Shown in pieces: positions 7,070-12,651 of a stretch of DNA of 64,000 nucleotides. The notes beneath the pieces are model-generated. The model made no database searches. It worked only from the letters and a program-made list of their open reading frames with translations, and was not told the origin of the DNA. Both the position numbers and the translations under genes were made by a program. Source of the stretch: Bombella sp. ESL0385 (GTDB lineage Bacteria > Pseudomonadota > Alphaproteobacteria > Acetobacterales > Acetobacteraceae); the NCBI RefSeq assembly GCF_009725755.1, contig NZ_WNIJ01000003.1, positions 1 to 64,000 on the forward strand, written 5' to 3'. Each line of letters opens with the position of its first letter. Position 1 is the stretch's first letter.

Positions 7070-9601
7070 GACGCCTTCTAAAATAGCCCGCAAGTAAGGC
7101 CCAGTGCGGCTAGCAGGGTCCTGCGCTACATCCTCTGGTGGACCAGCAGCAATAATCTGCCCGCCTTTCTCCCCACTGCCGGGGCCAATATCAATCACCC
7201 AATCACTCGCTGCCGCAACGCGCATATTATGCTCGGTCACGACCACGCTATGGCCTTGCTCCACAAGCGTTTGCAGCTGCCCTAAAAGCCGGTCTGTATC
7301 TGAGGGATGCAACCCTGTTGTGGGCTCATCCAAAATATACAGCATAGGGGCTGACCGCCGCTTTTGCAGCTCTGTCGCCAATTTGAGACGCTGCGCTTCC
7401 CCACCAGATAGTTCCGGCGCGGGCTGACCAAGGCGAAGATACCCTAACCCAGATTGCACCAATGTATCTAACCCACGGGCCAAGATCCCCTCGCCTGCAA
7501 AGAAGCTACAAGCCTCATCCACCGTCATTGCCAACACATCAGCGATGTTTTTATTCCGCAGCGTGATGGCGAGAACCTCATCCTTATACCGTGCCCCATG
7601 ACAAACCGGGCACGGGGCCTCCACACCGGGCATAAAAAGCAACCCGACCGAGACCGTCCCCAACCCCTCGCAATGCGGGCATCGCCCTTTTGCGACATTG
7701 AAGCTAAAGCTACTTTCATCCAACTTTGCCGCGCAGGCAGCATCGGTTGCAGCAAAAAGCTTGCGAATATGGTCGAAAATACCCGTATATGTCGCCAGAT
7801 TAGAGCGTGACGTCCGCCCAATGGGCTTTTGCGTTATCACAGCCAGACGCTTCACATGCTCCAACCCTGCGATAATCTGCCCTTCCGGCTGCGCCTCCAC
7901 AGCCTCACCCACTAGCGGTGCGGTCTCATCATCCTCTTGCCGCTCATCCGTTTCCTCAATCGCCTGACCTAGCGCGCGGCTGACCAAACTCACAAGGGCC
8001 TGACTCACCAAGCTCGACTTACCGGAGCCAGACACACCCGTCACGCTCACCAACACACCCAGCGGCAACTTTAACGAGAGATTCTGCATGTTCCGCCATG
8101 TAATGTTCTCTATCTGAAGCCACCGCTCTATAGGCCGCCTAGAGCCACATTCCAAAGGTGGTGGGGCAAATAGATAAGGCCGCGTACGAGAGGCCTCCAC
8201 CTGCCGTAAACCATCCGGCGGGCCGCTATAAAGCACCTGCCCCCCATGACGGCCCGCACCGGGGCCAATATCCACAAGCCAATCAGCATGACGCATCACC
8301 ACCGGGTCATGCTCCACAATAAGGAGGGAGTTCCCCGCCTTGGGCAAACAGCCTAACACATTCAAAAGCGATTCAATATCCGCAGGATGCAGCCCTGCGG
8401 CAGGCTCATCCAACACATAAGCCACACCGAACAAAGCGGAATGAACCTGCGTACCCAGCCGCAAGCGTTGATACTCACCGGGGGAGAGGCTATCCACAGC
8501 GCGGTCCGTTTGAAGGTACCCTAGTCCCAGCTCCAACAAAATCTCCAACCGCTTCATTAAAGCCGTGCCAATCTCCTCAATCACACGGCCTTGAGCATCA
8601 CTCAGTTGATTTTCTGCAAGCTGGTCCTTCAGCACATGATAAAGCTGCTCTAAAGGCAGGTGAGACAGGGCCGCAATATCTTGCCCCCCAAAGGTCACAG
8701 CAAGAGCTTCAGGCTTTAGACGCGCCCCATGACACACAGGGCAGCGCGTCGCCTGCATGAAGGATGCCGCACGGGCGCGCATTTTTGCACTTTTAGAGCC
8801 ATGGAAGCTCTGCATCACATAGCGGCGCGCACTCGCGAAAGTTCCCTGATAGGTTGCAGGCTCTCCCCGTTTGATAGCCGCTTGGCTCTCAGCATAATTC
8901 AACCCCCGATAGATAGGCTCGGTTGGGGTTTCATCTGTATAGAGTATCCACTCCCGGGTAGCTTTGGGCAAGTCTTGCCATGGTGTGTCGAGGTCTATCC
9001 CGCGCATCATAAGGATGTCCCGCAGATTCTGCCCCTGCCACGCACCGGGCCAAGCCGCTACGGCTTTTTCCCGCAGGGTTAAGGTCGGATCGGGCACCAT
9101 CTTTTCTTCCACAACATCATAGAGCCATCCCGTACCTTGGCAACGCGGGCACGCCCCCTGCGGGGTGTTAGCGGAGAAGTCGTCACTCTCCAGCATCGGC
9201 GCATCAGCGGGATAAGTACCCGCACGGGAATAGAGCATCCGCAATAGATTAGAGAGCGTTGTCACACTCCCCACAGAGGACCGGCTACTTGTCCCCGCCT
9301 GCTGCTGAAGCGCAATAACAGGCGGTAGCCCCTCGATATTACGGATTTTTGGCGGGGGTAGCTGATGGAACAAACGCCGCGCATAGGGGGCGACTGTCTC
9401 CAAATAACGCCGCTGTGCCTCGGCATACAACGTCCCAAATGCCAGAGAGGACTTCCCCGACCCAGACACGCCAGTAAACACCACTAGACAACCCCGTGGA
9501 ACCTCCAACGAGACATCCTTTAAATTATGCTCTTGCGCGCCTTCTATACGAATCATGTTTGTGAGGGCCTTTTGATGATGTGATAATGACGATCCTGCCA
9601 T
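7067..9601 (-). CDS. UvrA2-like excinuclease ATPase
   Basis: About 844 residues, a UvrA paralogue with two ABC ATPase halves. Seen: Walker A GVSGSGKSS near residues 45 and 520; four CxxC elements (CPRCQGTGW ~153, CPVCHGARLK ~288, CPHCEGLG ~640, CPVCHGARYK ~665); signatures LSPGEYQRLRLGTQ and LSGGEAQRLKLATEL; Walker B VLDEPAAGLHP and ILDEPTTGLHP. It is about 100 residues shorter than canonical UvrA, and the region after the first Walker A goes straight from LFHQLPPP to the Q-loop area, as in UvrA2 proteins that lack the UvrB-binding domain. It is therefore probably not the main repair UvrA; relatives are linked to drug or DNA-damage tolerance. GGAGG precedes the ATG at 9601; a start at 9556 (MIRIEGAQEHN) is also reasonable. 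Confidence 0.85.
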   Translation of the reverse strand: MAGSSLSHHQKALTNMIRIEGAQEHNLKDVSLEVPRGCLVVFTGVSGSGKSSLAFGTLYAEAQRRYLETVAPYARRLFHQLPPPKIRNIEGLPPVIALQQQAGTSSRSSVGSVTTLSNLLRMLYSRAGTYPADAPMLESDDFSANTPQGACPRCQGTGWLYDVVEEKMVPDPTLTLREKAVAAWPGAWQGQNLRDILMMRGIDLDTPWQDLPKATREWILYTDETPTEPIYRGLNYAESQAAIKRGEPATYQGTFASARRYVMQSFHGSKSAKMRARAASFMQATRCPVCHGARLKPEALAVTFGGQDIAALSHLPLEQLYHVLKDQLAENQLSDAQGRVIEEIGTALMKRLEILLELGLGYLQTDRAVDSLSPGEYQRLRLGTQVHSALFGVAYVLDEPAAGLHPADIESLLNVLGCLPKAGNSLLIVEHDPVVMRHADWLVDIGPGAGRHGGQVLYSGPPDGLRQVEASRTRPYLFAPPPLECGSRRPIERWLQIENITWRNMQNLSLKLPLGVLVSVTGVSGSGKSSLVSQALVSLVSRALGQAIEETDERQEDDETAPLVGEAVEAQPEGQIIAGLEHVKRLAVITQKPIGRTSRSNLATYTGIFDHIRKLFAATDAACAAKLDESSFSFNVAKGRCPHCEGLGTVSVGLLFMPGVEAPCPVCHGARYKDEVLAITLRNKNIADVLAMTVDEACSFFAGEGILARGLDTLVQSGLGYLRLGQPAPELSGGEAQRLKLATELQKRRSAPMLYILDEPTTGLHPSDTDRLLGQLQTLVEQGHSVVVTEHNMRVAAASDWVIDIGPGSGEKGGQIIAAGPPEDVAQDPASRTGPYLRAILEGV

Positions 9602-9758
9602 ATAGCCTCCCAACCCTGCGCGAACGAGGCGGGAAGACTAGCATATTCTATATCAACCTGATGCCTGTAAAATAGCACCTCTGACCTCAGGCAAATATCT
9701 TTCTATCGAACGAAATAAACTGATACAGTCAATTCTATTAAGGAGGAGGTTTTTTCAA

Positions 9759-11657
9759 ATGACTAAAAATTACGAATGGGCTGGCCCAAATGCAAATGTA
9801 GCCGAAGTCCTTAATAAATACTGCTACGGAAGCAGCAAACCTCCCTTCGCCTTAATGCTAGATGGCCCATGGGGTTGCGGTAAAACATGGCTCGTGAAAC
9901 GTCTTTTTGACAAAAAGAGGACGGACCGTGAATCGGATAGTGAGCTAAACATGATCTATGTATCCCTCTATGGGATGCAGAATGCCGAGGAAATAACACA
10001 AGCCATCTATGTCGCCATGCACCCCATACTTGGCGGCAAGATTGGAGAACTAGGAAAAACCGTTTTTAAAGGCTTGTTGAAAAGCACTTTAAAGATTGAT
10101 TTATACCATTTAGATAACAATAAAACTGACCTCTCAGTTATTCTAGGTATGTCTGGAGAGACAAAGAGCAAAGACAAAATATTCAAAAAGCGTATTCTAG
10201 TCTTCGATGATGTAGAACGAGCAAAAATGCCCGTATCCGACATATTAGCTCTCGTGCAGCCTTTGGTAGAATCACATGAAAACCGCGTTATTCTCGTTGC
10301 TAATGAAAAAGAAATTGCTATTGATGATAATGAAGAAAGAAAGCGTTATGAACGTACAAAGGAAAAGACCGTTTACCTTACATTACGGGTACAACCGGAT
10401 ATTAAAAGTGCTTGGAAAGATGTTATTGAATCTGAATTCAAAAAAGATCTCAAAAAATCTGAAGACAAAGATAATTTTGGAAAATTTCTATTAGAAAATG
10501 AAAATAATTTCATTGATTTTTTTGAAAAAACAAATGTAGAAAACATTAGAATTCTACAACTTTTCTTATCTTCTGGAAAATACTTATTTCCATCCTTTAA
10601 GGGAAAACAGGAGGATAATAACAATATAATTTTTGATATCCTCTGCCTATTATATGTACTTCTCATAGAAAAAAATATACATGGAAGAACATATGATGAT
10701 ATTGAAAAAATAGTTAGTCCCATTTCCAAAGAAGACGTAAATAATGATTCGTACTCAAAAACACGCGAAAGTAATTATTTCAACCTATTAAACGTATATA
10801 GAATGTTAAATGAATCTATATACTACCTTCTAGAAAAGGGAATCCTTAACAAGAAAGACTTTGAAGATAATCTTTCCTATTTTATTCACAATAGAACAAC
10901 CCCTATATGGAAAAGGATCTCAGCTTTTATTTATGAAAAACCCTCCGATACACATTATGATTCCCTAATTGGAAAATTTCGTTCATATCTCGAAAAAGAA
11001 ACTGCAGAAAACGATAAGGAACTGCTTCATGTTTGTGACGTTTATTTTATGCTAAAAAACATGAAGATAAACAGTTTTAATGATATAGACTCTGCTACTC
11101 TCTTAGAAAAATACACTAAAAGATATTGCGACTCGCTTTTATCAAAAGAAATCGCTTCTCTTACCCAAATTGACATCTGGAATGTAAAAGATTATTCTCC
11201 TTGGGAATTTCATAAAGAAAATATCAGCAAGATCAAAAAAATAAATGACATCTTGTCCTGTAAAAAGAAGAAATACCTTCTTAAAAAAATTAAGGACTAT
11301 TGTGAGGAAAAAATAAAAAACAATCAACCTTTTGAAATTACGAACCTTCTCTTACAAAGATATTTCCTCACAAACGATAATCCCTTCCTTCATAATATCG
11401 ATCCTGACAAATTTCTGGAATGCATAGATCAACTACCAACAGGCCCAGAACAGAATAAAATCTTCCGAGAACTCTACTTCCGCTTCCAAGAAGCTAAAAA
11501 CAAAGAATGGCAAAACGAAAAAGAATGGTTTGAAACAATCATCCAAAAACTTCGGGAAAAAGCAGATGACGCTACTACTCATCCTTTTATAAAACGCTTA
11601 ACAGAACTGCACCTCAAAACACTGGAAGAAGGTCCACAAAAATCCCTGACCAACTAA
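9759..11657 (+). CDS. KAP-type P-loop NTPase, AT-rich and probably horizontally acquired
   Basis: 632-residue protein. The N-terminal NTPase has Walker A GPWGCGKTW (G36 to W44), Walker B RILVFDDVERA (D150, D151, E153) and a sensor-like VILVANEKEI at ~177-186, the pattern of the KAP family (which includes the F-plasmid exclusion protein PifA). The remaining ~420 residues are Lys/Asn/Ile-rich, mainly helical, and not recognised; no membrane segments are evident, unlike many KAP proteins. Base composition is strikingly AT-rich compared with all neighbours. A strong AAGGAGGAGG site precedes the ATG. It is a single gene between the uvrA-like gene and tRNA-Tyr, a typical acquisition site. An antiphage or plasmid-exclusion role is inference from family and context only. 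Confidence 0.8.
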   Translation: MTKNYEWAGPNANVAEVLNKYCYGSSKPPFALMLDGPWGCGKTWLVKRLFDKKRTDRESDSELNMIYVSLYGMQNAEEITQAIYVAMHPILGGKIGELGKTVFKGLLKSTLKIDLYHLDNNKTDLSVILGMSGETKSKDKIFKKRILVFDDVERAKMPVSDILALVQPLVESHENRVILVANEKEIAIDDNEERKRYERTKEKTVYLTLRVQPDIKSAWKDVIESEFKKDLKKSEDKDNFGKFLLENENNFIDFFEKTNVENIRILQLFLSSGKYLFPSFKGKQEDNNNIIFDILCLLYVLLIEKNIHGRTYDDIEKIVSPISKEDVNNDSYSKTRESNYFNLLNVYRMLNESIYYLLEKGILNKKDFEDNLSYFIHNRTTPIWKRISAFIYEKPSDTHYDSLIGKFRSYLEKETAENDKELLHVCDVYFMLKNMKINSFNDIDSATLLEKYTKRYCDSLLSKEIASLTQIDIWNVKDYSPWEFHKENISKIKKINDILSCKKKKYLLKKIKDYCEEKIKNNQPFEITNLLLQRYFLTNDNPFLHNIDPDKFLECIDQLPTGPEQNKIFRELYFRFQEAKNKEWQNEKEWFETIIQKLREKADDATTHPFIKRLTELHLKTLEEGPQKSLTN

Positions 11658-11686: not shown

Positions 11687-11772
11687 TGGTGGAGGGGGTT
11701 GGATTCGAACCAACGTAGGCGTACGCCAGCGGATTTACAGTCCGCCCCCTTTAGCCACTCGGGCACCCCTCC
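11687..11772 (-). tRNA. tRNA-Tyr (GTA)
   Basis: 86 nt including encoded CCA. The acceptor stem GGAGGGG pairs with CCCCTCC, the anticodon loop reads CTGTAAA (anticodon GTA), the T-arm contains GGTTCGAATCC, and there is the long variable arm of a class II tRNA. The 3' end faces the KAP NTPase gene, 29 nt away. Confidence 0.97.
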
Positions 11773-11847: not shown

Positions 11848-12651
11848 ATGGCTAAAAAATCATCCTCCCGCCGTGTGGCTTTGCCAGAGGCGCAAAATCT
11901 CTCCCGCAATCGCTCCCGCCGCAGCACGACCAAGCACGGGGCTCCCGCTACTGGCAAGGGTTATTGGCTCTATGGTCAACATGCTGTGGAGGCCGCGCTC
12001 CTCAACCCTGCGCGCGTTATTTACGCCCTGCTTGCCACCAAAGAGGCCGAGGCTGCCCTTCCCCAAACAGCGCATCAACCGCGCATCGTCAGCCGGGAGG
12101 AGCTAGATGCCCTCTGCGGTAAAGAGGCCGTGCATCAAGGGGTGTGCCTCAATGTCGAGCCGTTGGAAAACCCGGCTCTCGTGGATGTGATCGACCGCCC
12201 CGGCCCTATTCTTGTATTGGACCAAGTAACAGACCCGCGCAATATCGGGGCCATTCTACGCTCTGCCGCCGCTTTTGGGGCCGCTGCTCTCATCGTGCAA
12301 GACCGTCACACACCTGATGAAACCGGGACTATGGCCAAAGCGGCCTCTGGCGGATTGGATATTGTGCCCATCATTCGGGAAACGAATATCTCCCGCACGC
12401 TGCAAAGCTTACAAAAAGCGGGCTTCTGGGTCGTGGGGTTAGATGCTGGTGGGACGCGCTTAGACCGCACCCAGCTTGGTCAACGCCGTGTGGCTCTCGT
12501 TCTAGGGGCCGAGGGGGCAGGGCTACGCCGCCTAACACGAGAGACGTGTGATGAGATTGCCTCCATTTACATGTCTGGCCCGATGGAGAGCCTAAATGTC
12601 TCCAACGCTTCTGCGGTGGCCCTATACGAGCTGACCCGCCCCCTCAGCTAA
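11848..12651 (+). CDS. rlmB: 23S rRNA (guanosine-2'-O-)-methyltransferase RlmB (SpoU family)
   Basis: 267 residues. A basic Ser/Arg-rich N-terminus leads into the L30e-like substrate-binding domain (LYGQHAVEAALLNP), then the SpoU knot domain with motif 1 LDQVTDPRNIGAILRSA, motif 2 LVLGAEGAGLRRL and motif 3 MSGPMESLNVSNASAVALYE. RlmB methylates G2251 in the peptidyl-transferase P loop. The order and spacing of the motifs fit RlmB rather than TrmH. It is a single-gene unit next to tRNA-Tyr, ending at a hairpin shared with the convergent gene. Confidence 0.9.
   Translation: MAKKSSSRRVALPEAQNLSRNRSRRSTTKHGAPATGKGYWLYGQHAVEAALLNPARVIYALLATKEAEAALPQTAHQPRIVSREELDALCGKEAVHQGVCLNVEPLENPALVDVIDRPGPILVLDQVTDPRNIGAILRSAAAFGAAALIVQDRHTPDETGTMAKAASGGLDIVPIIRETNISRTLQSLQKAGFWVVGLDAGGTRLDRTQLGQRRVALVLGAEGAGLRRLTRETCDEIASIYMSGPMESLNVSNASAVALYELTRPLS

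Follow-up and report, generated by a model that had tools for sequence, protein, structure and literature searches.

A solitary KAP-family NTPase gene of the candidate phage defence family PDC-S49 in a cargo slot beside tRNA-Tyr in Bombella

The stretch of DNA analysed here, which we refer to as the window, comprises 64,000 nucleotides from Bombella sp. ESL0385 (contig NZ_WNIJ01000003.1, positions 1 to 64,000). It contains a gene for a KAP-family P-loop NTPase of 632 amino acids at positions 9759..11657 on the forward strand, which starts with ATG and has its own ribosome binding site, as the first-pass annotation had stated: the Shine-Dalgarno-like AAGGAGGAGG (9740..9749, forward strand) was read in the sequence nine bases 5' of the start codon. 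The slot that holds the gene is bordered on the left by a uvrA2-like gene (7070..9613, reverse strand), orthologues of which were found in 10 of the 11 genomes of the genus with 88% to 100% identity, and on the right by the gene for tRNA-Tyr(GTA) (11687..11772, reverse strand), also found in relatives, and an RNA methyltransferase gene (11848..12651, forward strand) with orthologues in all 11 genus genomes (91% to 100% identity; the genome of the window is included in both counts). We refer to the methyltransferase gene as trmH, a name that we gave it from reading its sequence. The 3' end of tRNA-Tyr faces the KAP gene and lies 29 bases past its stop codon, in agreement with the position first described. 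The KAP gene is the sole ORF of more than 120 amino acids in the 2.2-kb slot, and scans for promoters and terminators gave sites no commoner than in shuffled sequences.

The base composition of the gene was unlike that of its neighbours, as previously noted, with a GC content of 0.34 for the ORF compared to mostly 0.51 to 0.57 in the flanking 1-kb windows. Within the ORF, the GC content was 45% to 47% in the first 100 codons and 25% to 31% in codons 201 to 550. The AT-richness is not merely a matter of amino acid composition, since the GC3 values were also low, ranging from 0.20 to 0.54 in the KAP gene, compared with 0.58 for uvrA2 and 0.62 for trmH.

Profile searches confirmed that the protein is a P-loop NTPase. 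The Pfam profile KAP_NTPase (PF07693) matched residues 12 to 267 with 63.4 bits, above the curated cut-off of 20 (E 2.7e-17), and phrog_4740 in PHROGs matched residues 11 to 606 (E 5.1e-49), while nothing was found in NCBIfam at E values up to 1. Furthermore, the protein matched all three PADLOC models for PDC-S49, a single-gene phage defence candidate in PADLOC-DB, with residues 9 to 624 aligned to positions 4 to 611 of 624 in a full-length match (E 6.7e-88). Because this match spans residues 9 to 624, the C-terminal part of about 420 residues, initially described as unrecognised, is a portion of the catalogued candidate family PDC-S49, and the protein as a whole corresponds to that candidate rather than to an undescribed factor. 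It resembled PDC-S49 in length, in the NTPase core and in being encoded by a solitary gene, in keeping with the single-gene definition of PDC-S49, and no tested feature set it apart. PifA of plasmid F, which excludes phage T7, is a KAP-family protein, and kinship with PifA had been suggested; however, the PifA profile was not among the PADLOC matches listed for the window protein at E values up to 1, nor were the Avs profiles, and a weak match to the PifA model was seen in 1 of the 36 proteins aligned below.

A PADLOC match by itself is weak and unspecific evidence, because, at E values up to 1e-20, seven PADLOC models (mad3, MzaA, mad8, RTasHel, and three for GajB) had one hit each among 49 other proteins in the window that we searched as a control. 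The match here both covers the entire protein and is consistent with the genomic context. It was also noted that the PDC-S49 model matched none of 14 control genomes at an E value of 1e-30 and one of them, Caulobacter vibrioides, at 1e-20. The PDC families originate from a "guilt-by-embedding" survey, and most of them are unvalidated (PMC12988326).

To describe sequence conservation, we used an alignment of 36 proteins, which included those of 32 of the 60 viral loci presented below and in which every protein matched each of the three PDC-S49 models at E values up to 0.001. The invariant and nearly invariant positions were concentrated in the Walker A motif GPWGCGKTW (residues 36 to 44; 9864..9890, with G36, G39, G41, and K42 invariant), the Walker B motif FDDVER (residues 149 to 154; 10203..10220, with D150, D151, and E153 invariant), a family-conserved KEK motif (residues 201 to 203; 10359..10367, with E202 and K203 invariant and K201 present in at least 90% of the proteins), and R264, all coordinates referring to the forward strand. 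An insert of low confidence (residues 91 to 144; 10029..10190, forward strand) occupies the interval between the Walker motifs, with pLDDT values below 50 at residues 94 to 100, 105 to 107, and 109 to 139. The C-terminal half (residues 286 to 632; 10614..11654, forward strand) is hypervariable, with low identity between the alleles of the genus and few conserved positions in the alignment, namely E304, Y332, W384, R575, and E587. When modelled separately, it was predicted to consist of helices only (pLDDT 80.2).

The AlphaFold2 model of the whole protein, built from 36 sequences, had a pLDDT of 78.9 and a pTM of 0.66, with most of residues 94 to 139 uncertain. Foldseek identified no PDB chain at an E value of 0.001 for the whole model; the best hit was of DnaA type (1.1e-3), and Avs5 and NLRP chains were among the weak rows. 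A VIA-align comparison of residues about 4 to 348 gave Z-scores of 14.5 for ORC (rmsd 5.5, 254 aligned residues), 13.9 for TnsC, 12.8 for MuB, and 11.9 for RdrA of RADAR. In the model, the NTPase core thus resembles AAA+ ATPases that assemble into rings or filaments, either on nucleic acid or in defence. The best hit in a viral structure library was an AAA-domain protein (E 1.0e-3), followed by clamp loaders, and a sequence search of solved relatives gave at best an ORC4 chain that matched profile positions 24 to 64 only (E 0.012) for the whole profile and an E value of 0.18 for the C-terminal half. A C-terminal enzyme domain was considered and rejected, as none was seen when this half was modelled alone (best Foldseek E value 0.38). 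The best VIA-align hits for this half were helical-repeat proteins (Z 8.2 at most), a range that is common for helical proteins, and we claim no fold relative.

KAP NTPases typically, although not obligatorily, have transmembrane segments inserted in the NTPase domain. In accordance with the first-pass annotation, a hydropathy scan of the window protein revealed no transmembrane segment in the KAP insert or elsewhere. The five most hydrophobic 19-residue windows start at residues 285 to 291, outside the KAP insert, and reached a borderline maximum of 1.69. The most hydrophobic helix, predicted at residues 290 to 308, belongs to the helical half, and the most hydrophobic place varied among the relatives.

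The variable presence of the gene in relatives, as had been expected, was evident from a comparison of the interval between uvrA2 and trmH in the genus, the members of which include genomes with record titles naming Bombella saccharophila and Parasaccharibacter apium. We take these species to be bee-associated, which agrees with an abstract on Bombella apis. The KAP gene was matched in 5 of the 100 genomes searched (including that of the window), all 5 of them within the genus, and the remaining 6 of the 11 genus genomes had no KAP match anywhere at an E value of 0.001. Ten of the 11 genomes were comparable at the slot, G007 being left out since the contig ends beside trmH and identity to the best uvrA2 match is just 42%. 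In all 10, tRNA-Tyr was located between uvrA2 and trmH, the distance between these border genes ranged from 1.3 to 7.8 kb, and no slot was empty.

The KAP gene was located in the slot in 5 of the 10 genomes, the window genome (G000), G005, G006, G010, and G003, the last with a broken reading frame. The frame of the G003 allele (G003:C5:120155-122006) is broken by frame changes, one of which lies near runs of A, and either decay or an error in the draft sequence is possible. In G001 and G009, the slot contained type I restriction-modification genes, identified by profile matches to HsdM, HsdS, and HsdR in G001 and judged to be alike in G009 by length and sequence similarity. An ORF of 358 amino acids (L035:2705-3778) ahead of these genes in G001, with a counterpart in G009, had no Pfam or PADLOC match at an E value of 0.01 and is perhaps part of the restriction-modification locus. 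The slot of G004 contained genes for an HD protein and a nucleotidyltransferase, a pair matching PDC-M70A (E 1e-61), and that of G002 a gene for an HNH protein that matched type IV restriction enzymes (mREase_IV-like) over residues 184 to 276 only (E 4e-22). No Pfam or PADLOC match was obtained for the three ORFs scanned in the G008 slot (L039), where about 4 kb contains small ORFs, and some of these appear to encode secreted proteins. Presence in all relatives amid ordinary gene content, which the first-pass annotation had named as contrary evidence, was thus not observed; rather, 4 of the 5 slots without the KAP gene hold known or candidate defence genes. We conclude that the interval between uvrA2 and tRNA-Tyr is a cargo slot in Bombella and Parasaccharibacter, and in Bombella it has the appearance of a compact defence hotspot.

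The first-pass annotation had taken the position beside the tRNA to fit acquisition by transfer. A tRNA-integrated genomic island was, however, unsupported: a search of the interval for exact 14-base direct repeats of the tRNA end was negative in all 10 genomes, and no integrase was seen among the listed slot ORFs when these were read by eye. The simplest reading is therefore that the cargo of the slot has been exchanged by recombination in the shared flanks. We found no recent donor of the KAP gene; full-length identity to relatives outside the genus did not exceed about 25%, and a peptide-pattern scan of genome contigs retrieved just three members of the genus.

The flanking proteins of the window genome were 98% to 99% identical to those in G006 and G010, whereas the KAP proteins were only 38% to 39% identical, which indicates that the KAP allele has either been replaced or has diverged very rapidly. 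The divergence was unevenly distributed, with residues 1 to 212 of the window protein being 75% and 58% identical to the G005 and G006 alleles, respectively, as compared to 25% to 26% for residues 213 to 540. The KAP genes of G006 and G010 differed by 10 nonsynonymous and 3 synonymous changes (dN/dS 0.87), with corresponding dN/dS values of 0.11 for uvrA2 and 0.09 for trmH in the flanks. For pairs of E. coli-type alleles, dN/dS was mostly 0.11 to 0.51, with one C-terminal value of 1.19 from 11 changes, and these alleles are under purifying rather than positive selection. The case for positive selection was weak and was set aside, given that the 13 substitutions between G006 and G010 are too few and that the values for the E. 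coli-type pairs were mostly 0.11 to 0.51.

A homologue, with an E value of 3.7e-156 to PDC-S49, was identified in 45 of 5,426 E. coli genomes; among the matches listed, it was chromosomal throughout, and the alleles (20 of 45) were 90% to 100% identical in DNA sequence. We queried E. coli with a locus extending from the end of gpA through the KAP, portal, and terminase genes, and counted a place if at least 80% of the query was covered. In 44 genomes, one place covered at least 80% of the query and included genes named P-loop NTPase, portal, and replication endonuclease, while the 45th, FORC_081, had the KAP gene, the portal gene, and an HNH gene together at a place that covered 62% of the query. 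Judging by their numbers and names, these 45 genomes are the same as those with the homologue. In the five of the 45 loci for which the flanks were read, the KAP gene was situated between the replication endonuclease and portal genes of P2-like prophages. The gpA-gpQ interval of such prophages is an anti-phage hotspot and the home of old and tin, and the section of the article on this hotspot names no KAP gene (PMC9122126).

The second gene at the E. coli loci varied and encoded a hypothetical protein, ParA plus SIR2, RES, AIPR, DprA, DUF4145, or HNH. Downstream of the KAP gene in several of the E. coli P2-like prophages was a gene for a 223-amino-acid protein (L068:11468-12139) with no Pfam or PADLOC match at an E value of 0.01. 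We also noted a second gene annotated as a KAP family NTPase (L068:1-1081, reverse strand) near the repressor gene of the same prophage.

Relatives were encoded at 60 loci on viral contigs, in 56 cases by ORFs of 542 to 678 amino acids. Using marker proteins from the viral and E. coli loci, we assigned 8 loci to the gpA-gpQ interval and 8 to gpV-gpS, the last two labels being our own reading, while 13 adjoined a P2-type integrase gene (checked with Pfam for L113), 1 was near a portal gene, and 30 were unclassified; near-duplicate contigs are included in these counts. A TIR-domain gene (L112:7883-8758) was located 3' of an integrase-adjacent KAP gene on one viral contig. A scan with the Gloeocapsopsis protein retrieved no viral relative. 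Only 1 of 50,697 phage records matched, with 45% covered, and of the 66 matches among 72,556 plasmids, 1 covered 80%. At an E value of 1e-30, PDC-S49 was matched in 11 of the 398 genomes from the phylum (including that of the window), and in two of these the gene was near relaxase genes, in one case together with a gene for an Mrr-type nuclease.

From these results, we consider it probable, at roughly 0.7, that the window gene is an exchangeable single-gene phage defence of the soluble KAP type, belonging to the candidate family PDC-S49 and carried as cargo between uvrA2 and tRNA-Tyr. This reading builds on what was established by computation: family membership, alternative defence cargo in the slot, phage accessory positions, a conserved core, and a hypervariable helical half. 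The defence role as such, as proposed from the start, is supported by inference from the slot cargo, the family, and the P2 hotspot, and we regard it as quite likely. The evidence from the hotspot and the candidate family amounts to guilt by association, because the cargo of the P2 slot extends to partition genes and a toxin (PMC9122126). Counting against defence are the lone partial match among phage records, the purifying selection, the unrecognised content of the G008 slot, the broken copy in G003, and the dispensability of QatA, a KAP protein that can be dispensed with against some phages within qatABCD (PMC13279940).

The association with P2-like prophages also allows for another explanation, which is that the gene once served a phage in superinfection exclusion or lysogenic conversion, was later stranded in the chromosome, and confers protection solely against phages closely related to that former one. 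The match of phrog_4740 over residues 11 to 606, the occurrence of 30 of the 60 viral loci in P2-type accessory positions, and the shared place with a P2-type portal gene in all 45 E. coli copies all agree with such an origin. However, when the slot ORFs were read by eye, no phage gene was noticed in the window genome or the other four KAP genomes, and the slot alternates with type I restriction-modification genes and the PDC-M70A pair, whereas the P2 and P4 hotspots, in the text of the hotspot section, are without large systems such as type I restriction-modification (PMC9122126). We therefore find a stranded prophage gene unlikely.

A different setting was observed in another family, f74, in which 4 of 74 genomes contained the gene, including one where only a fragment was present at the end of a contig. 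In three f74 genomes, the PDC-S49 gene (L058:8575-10356, forward strand; L059:4699-6483, reverse strand; L060:1532-3286, reverse strand) was located between genes for a solute-binding protein and an ABC-transporter permease and ATPase, which we take to be modABC-like from our own reading; all three loci were read by eye, and the domains were checked for L058. At L058, a molybdopterin oxidoreductase gene was nearby and the PDC-S49 gene overlapped the upstream gene by 4 bp. Such a location is unusual for a defence gene and counts against a pure defence reading; it speaks for a host KAP ATPase, for example related to transport or stress, without anti-phage function. Yet the arrangement is rare, the gene being present in so few of the f74 genomes at all, and in the genus of the window the gene occurs in 5 of 11 genomes while other defence systems occupy the same slot, which makes a host ATPase very unlikely. 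We also noted divergent KAP relatives with a longer NTPase region in another genus of the family, g40 (L063:7646-10033 and L064:8144-10548), the second copy being interrupted.

A RES-domain or SIR2-like gene is located 3' of some E. coli copies, which would accord with a selfish or toxin-like element that is maintained through its linkage, for instance as the toxin or the antitoxin of a pair, and affords defence only incidentally. The second gene in E. coli is not constant, however, and the window slot holds no other ORF of more than 120 amino acids; this reading is the least probable and by a wide measure improbable.

If the gene is an exchangeable single-gene defence, the KAP core would hydrolyse ATP and assemble into an oligomer similar to those of ORC, TnsC, or RdrA, and we think that ATP-dependent oligomerisation is somewhat more probable than its absence. 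The hypervariable helical half may recognise a protein or nucleic acid made by the phage. Its variability between close relatives is what would be expected in an arms race, so this half may serve as the recognition surface; a sensor role, one of the two functions originally suggested for it, is consistent with the hypervariability, and we put it at even odds. Recognition would switch the oligomer, and the infection would then be stopped either directly, with the oligomer remodelling or blocking phage nucleic acid, or through a shutdown of the cell. As neither an effector domain nor a partner was seen in Bombella, the oligomer itself may block phage nucleic acid or act on a host target, and direct action on phage nucleic acid is a doubtful choice between the two. 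More speculatively, and rather less probably still, the PDC-S49 proteins in general may be soluble, effector-less immune receptors that combine a helical sensor with a ring or filament of the ORC/TnsC type as effector, the sensor being diversified by replacement of alleles within the slot.

Among known systems, Tmn shares with the window protein a KAP-family NTPase used in phage defence but has two transmembrane domains (PMC11846954), whereas none were seen in the window protein. QatA is a DNA-binding protein with an apparent 7- or 8-meric assembly (PMC13279940); however, qatABCD is an operon that also includes qatB, qatC, and qatD, whereas the window gene stands alone between the uvrA2-like gene and tRNA-Tyr. 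As in the window protein, the ATPase core of RdrA of RADAR and of the STAND/NLR-type receptors (Avs) precedes a helical half. The likeness is limited to the NTPase core, and the window protein is without an N-terminal effector domain, the KAP match starting at residue 12, and without a partner.

Searches of the literature on KAP proteins and defence turned up Tmn and QatA and nothing that we recognised as concerning the PDC-S49 family, and neither the name PDC-S49 nor the five E. coli homologue protein accessions were found in the literature searched. A narrow search did not find the Bombella slot described in print, and a paper on CRISPR in Bombella (PMC12282179) contained none of PADLOC, DefenseFinder, restriction, KAP, island, and tRNA as whole words. 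The window protein accordingly adds a member to a candidate family that was already known, and the hotspot that holds its gene is one that we did not find described. A bee-associated alphaproteobacterium and P2-like prophages provide independent evidence that a widespread KAP candidate family is anti-phage cargo. Natural material for tests is available in the E. coli alleles, which are at least 90% identical in DNA among the matches listed, and in the Bombella relatives with near-identical flanks and strongly diverged KAP proteins. The slot between uvrA2 and tRNA-Tyr may also be mined for more systems, such as the HD and nucleotidyltransferase pair in G004 (L037:2813-4998), where an AT-rich HD-domain gene overlaps the nucleotidyltransferase gene in what is a second candidate system, consisting of two genes.
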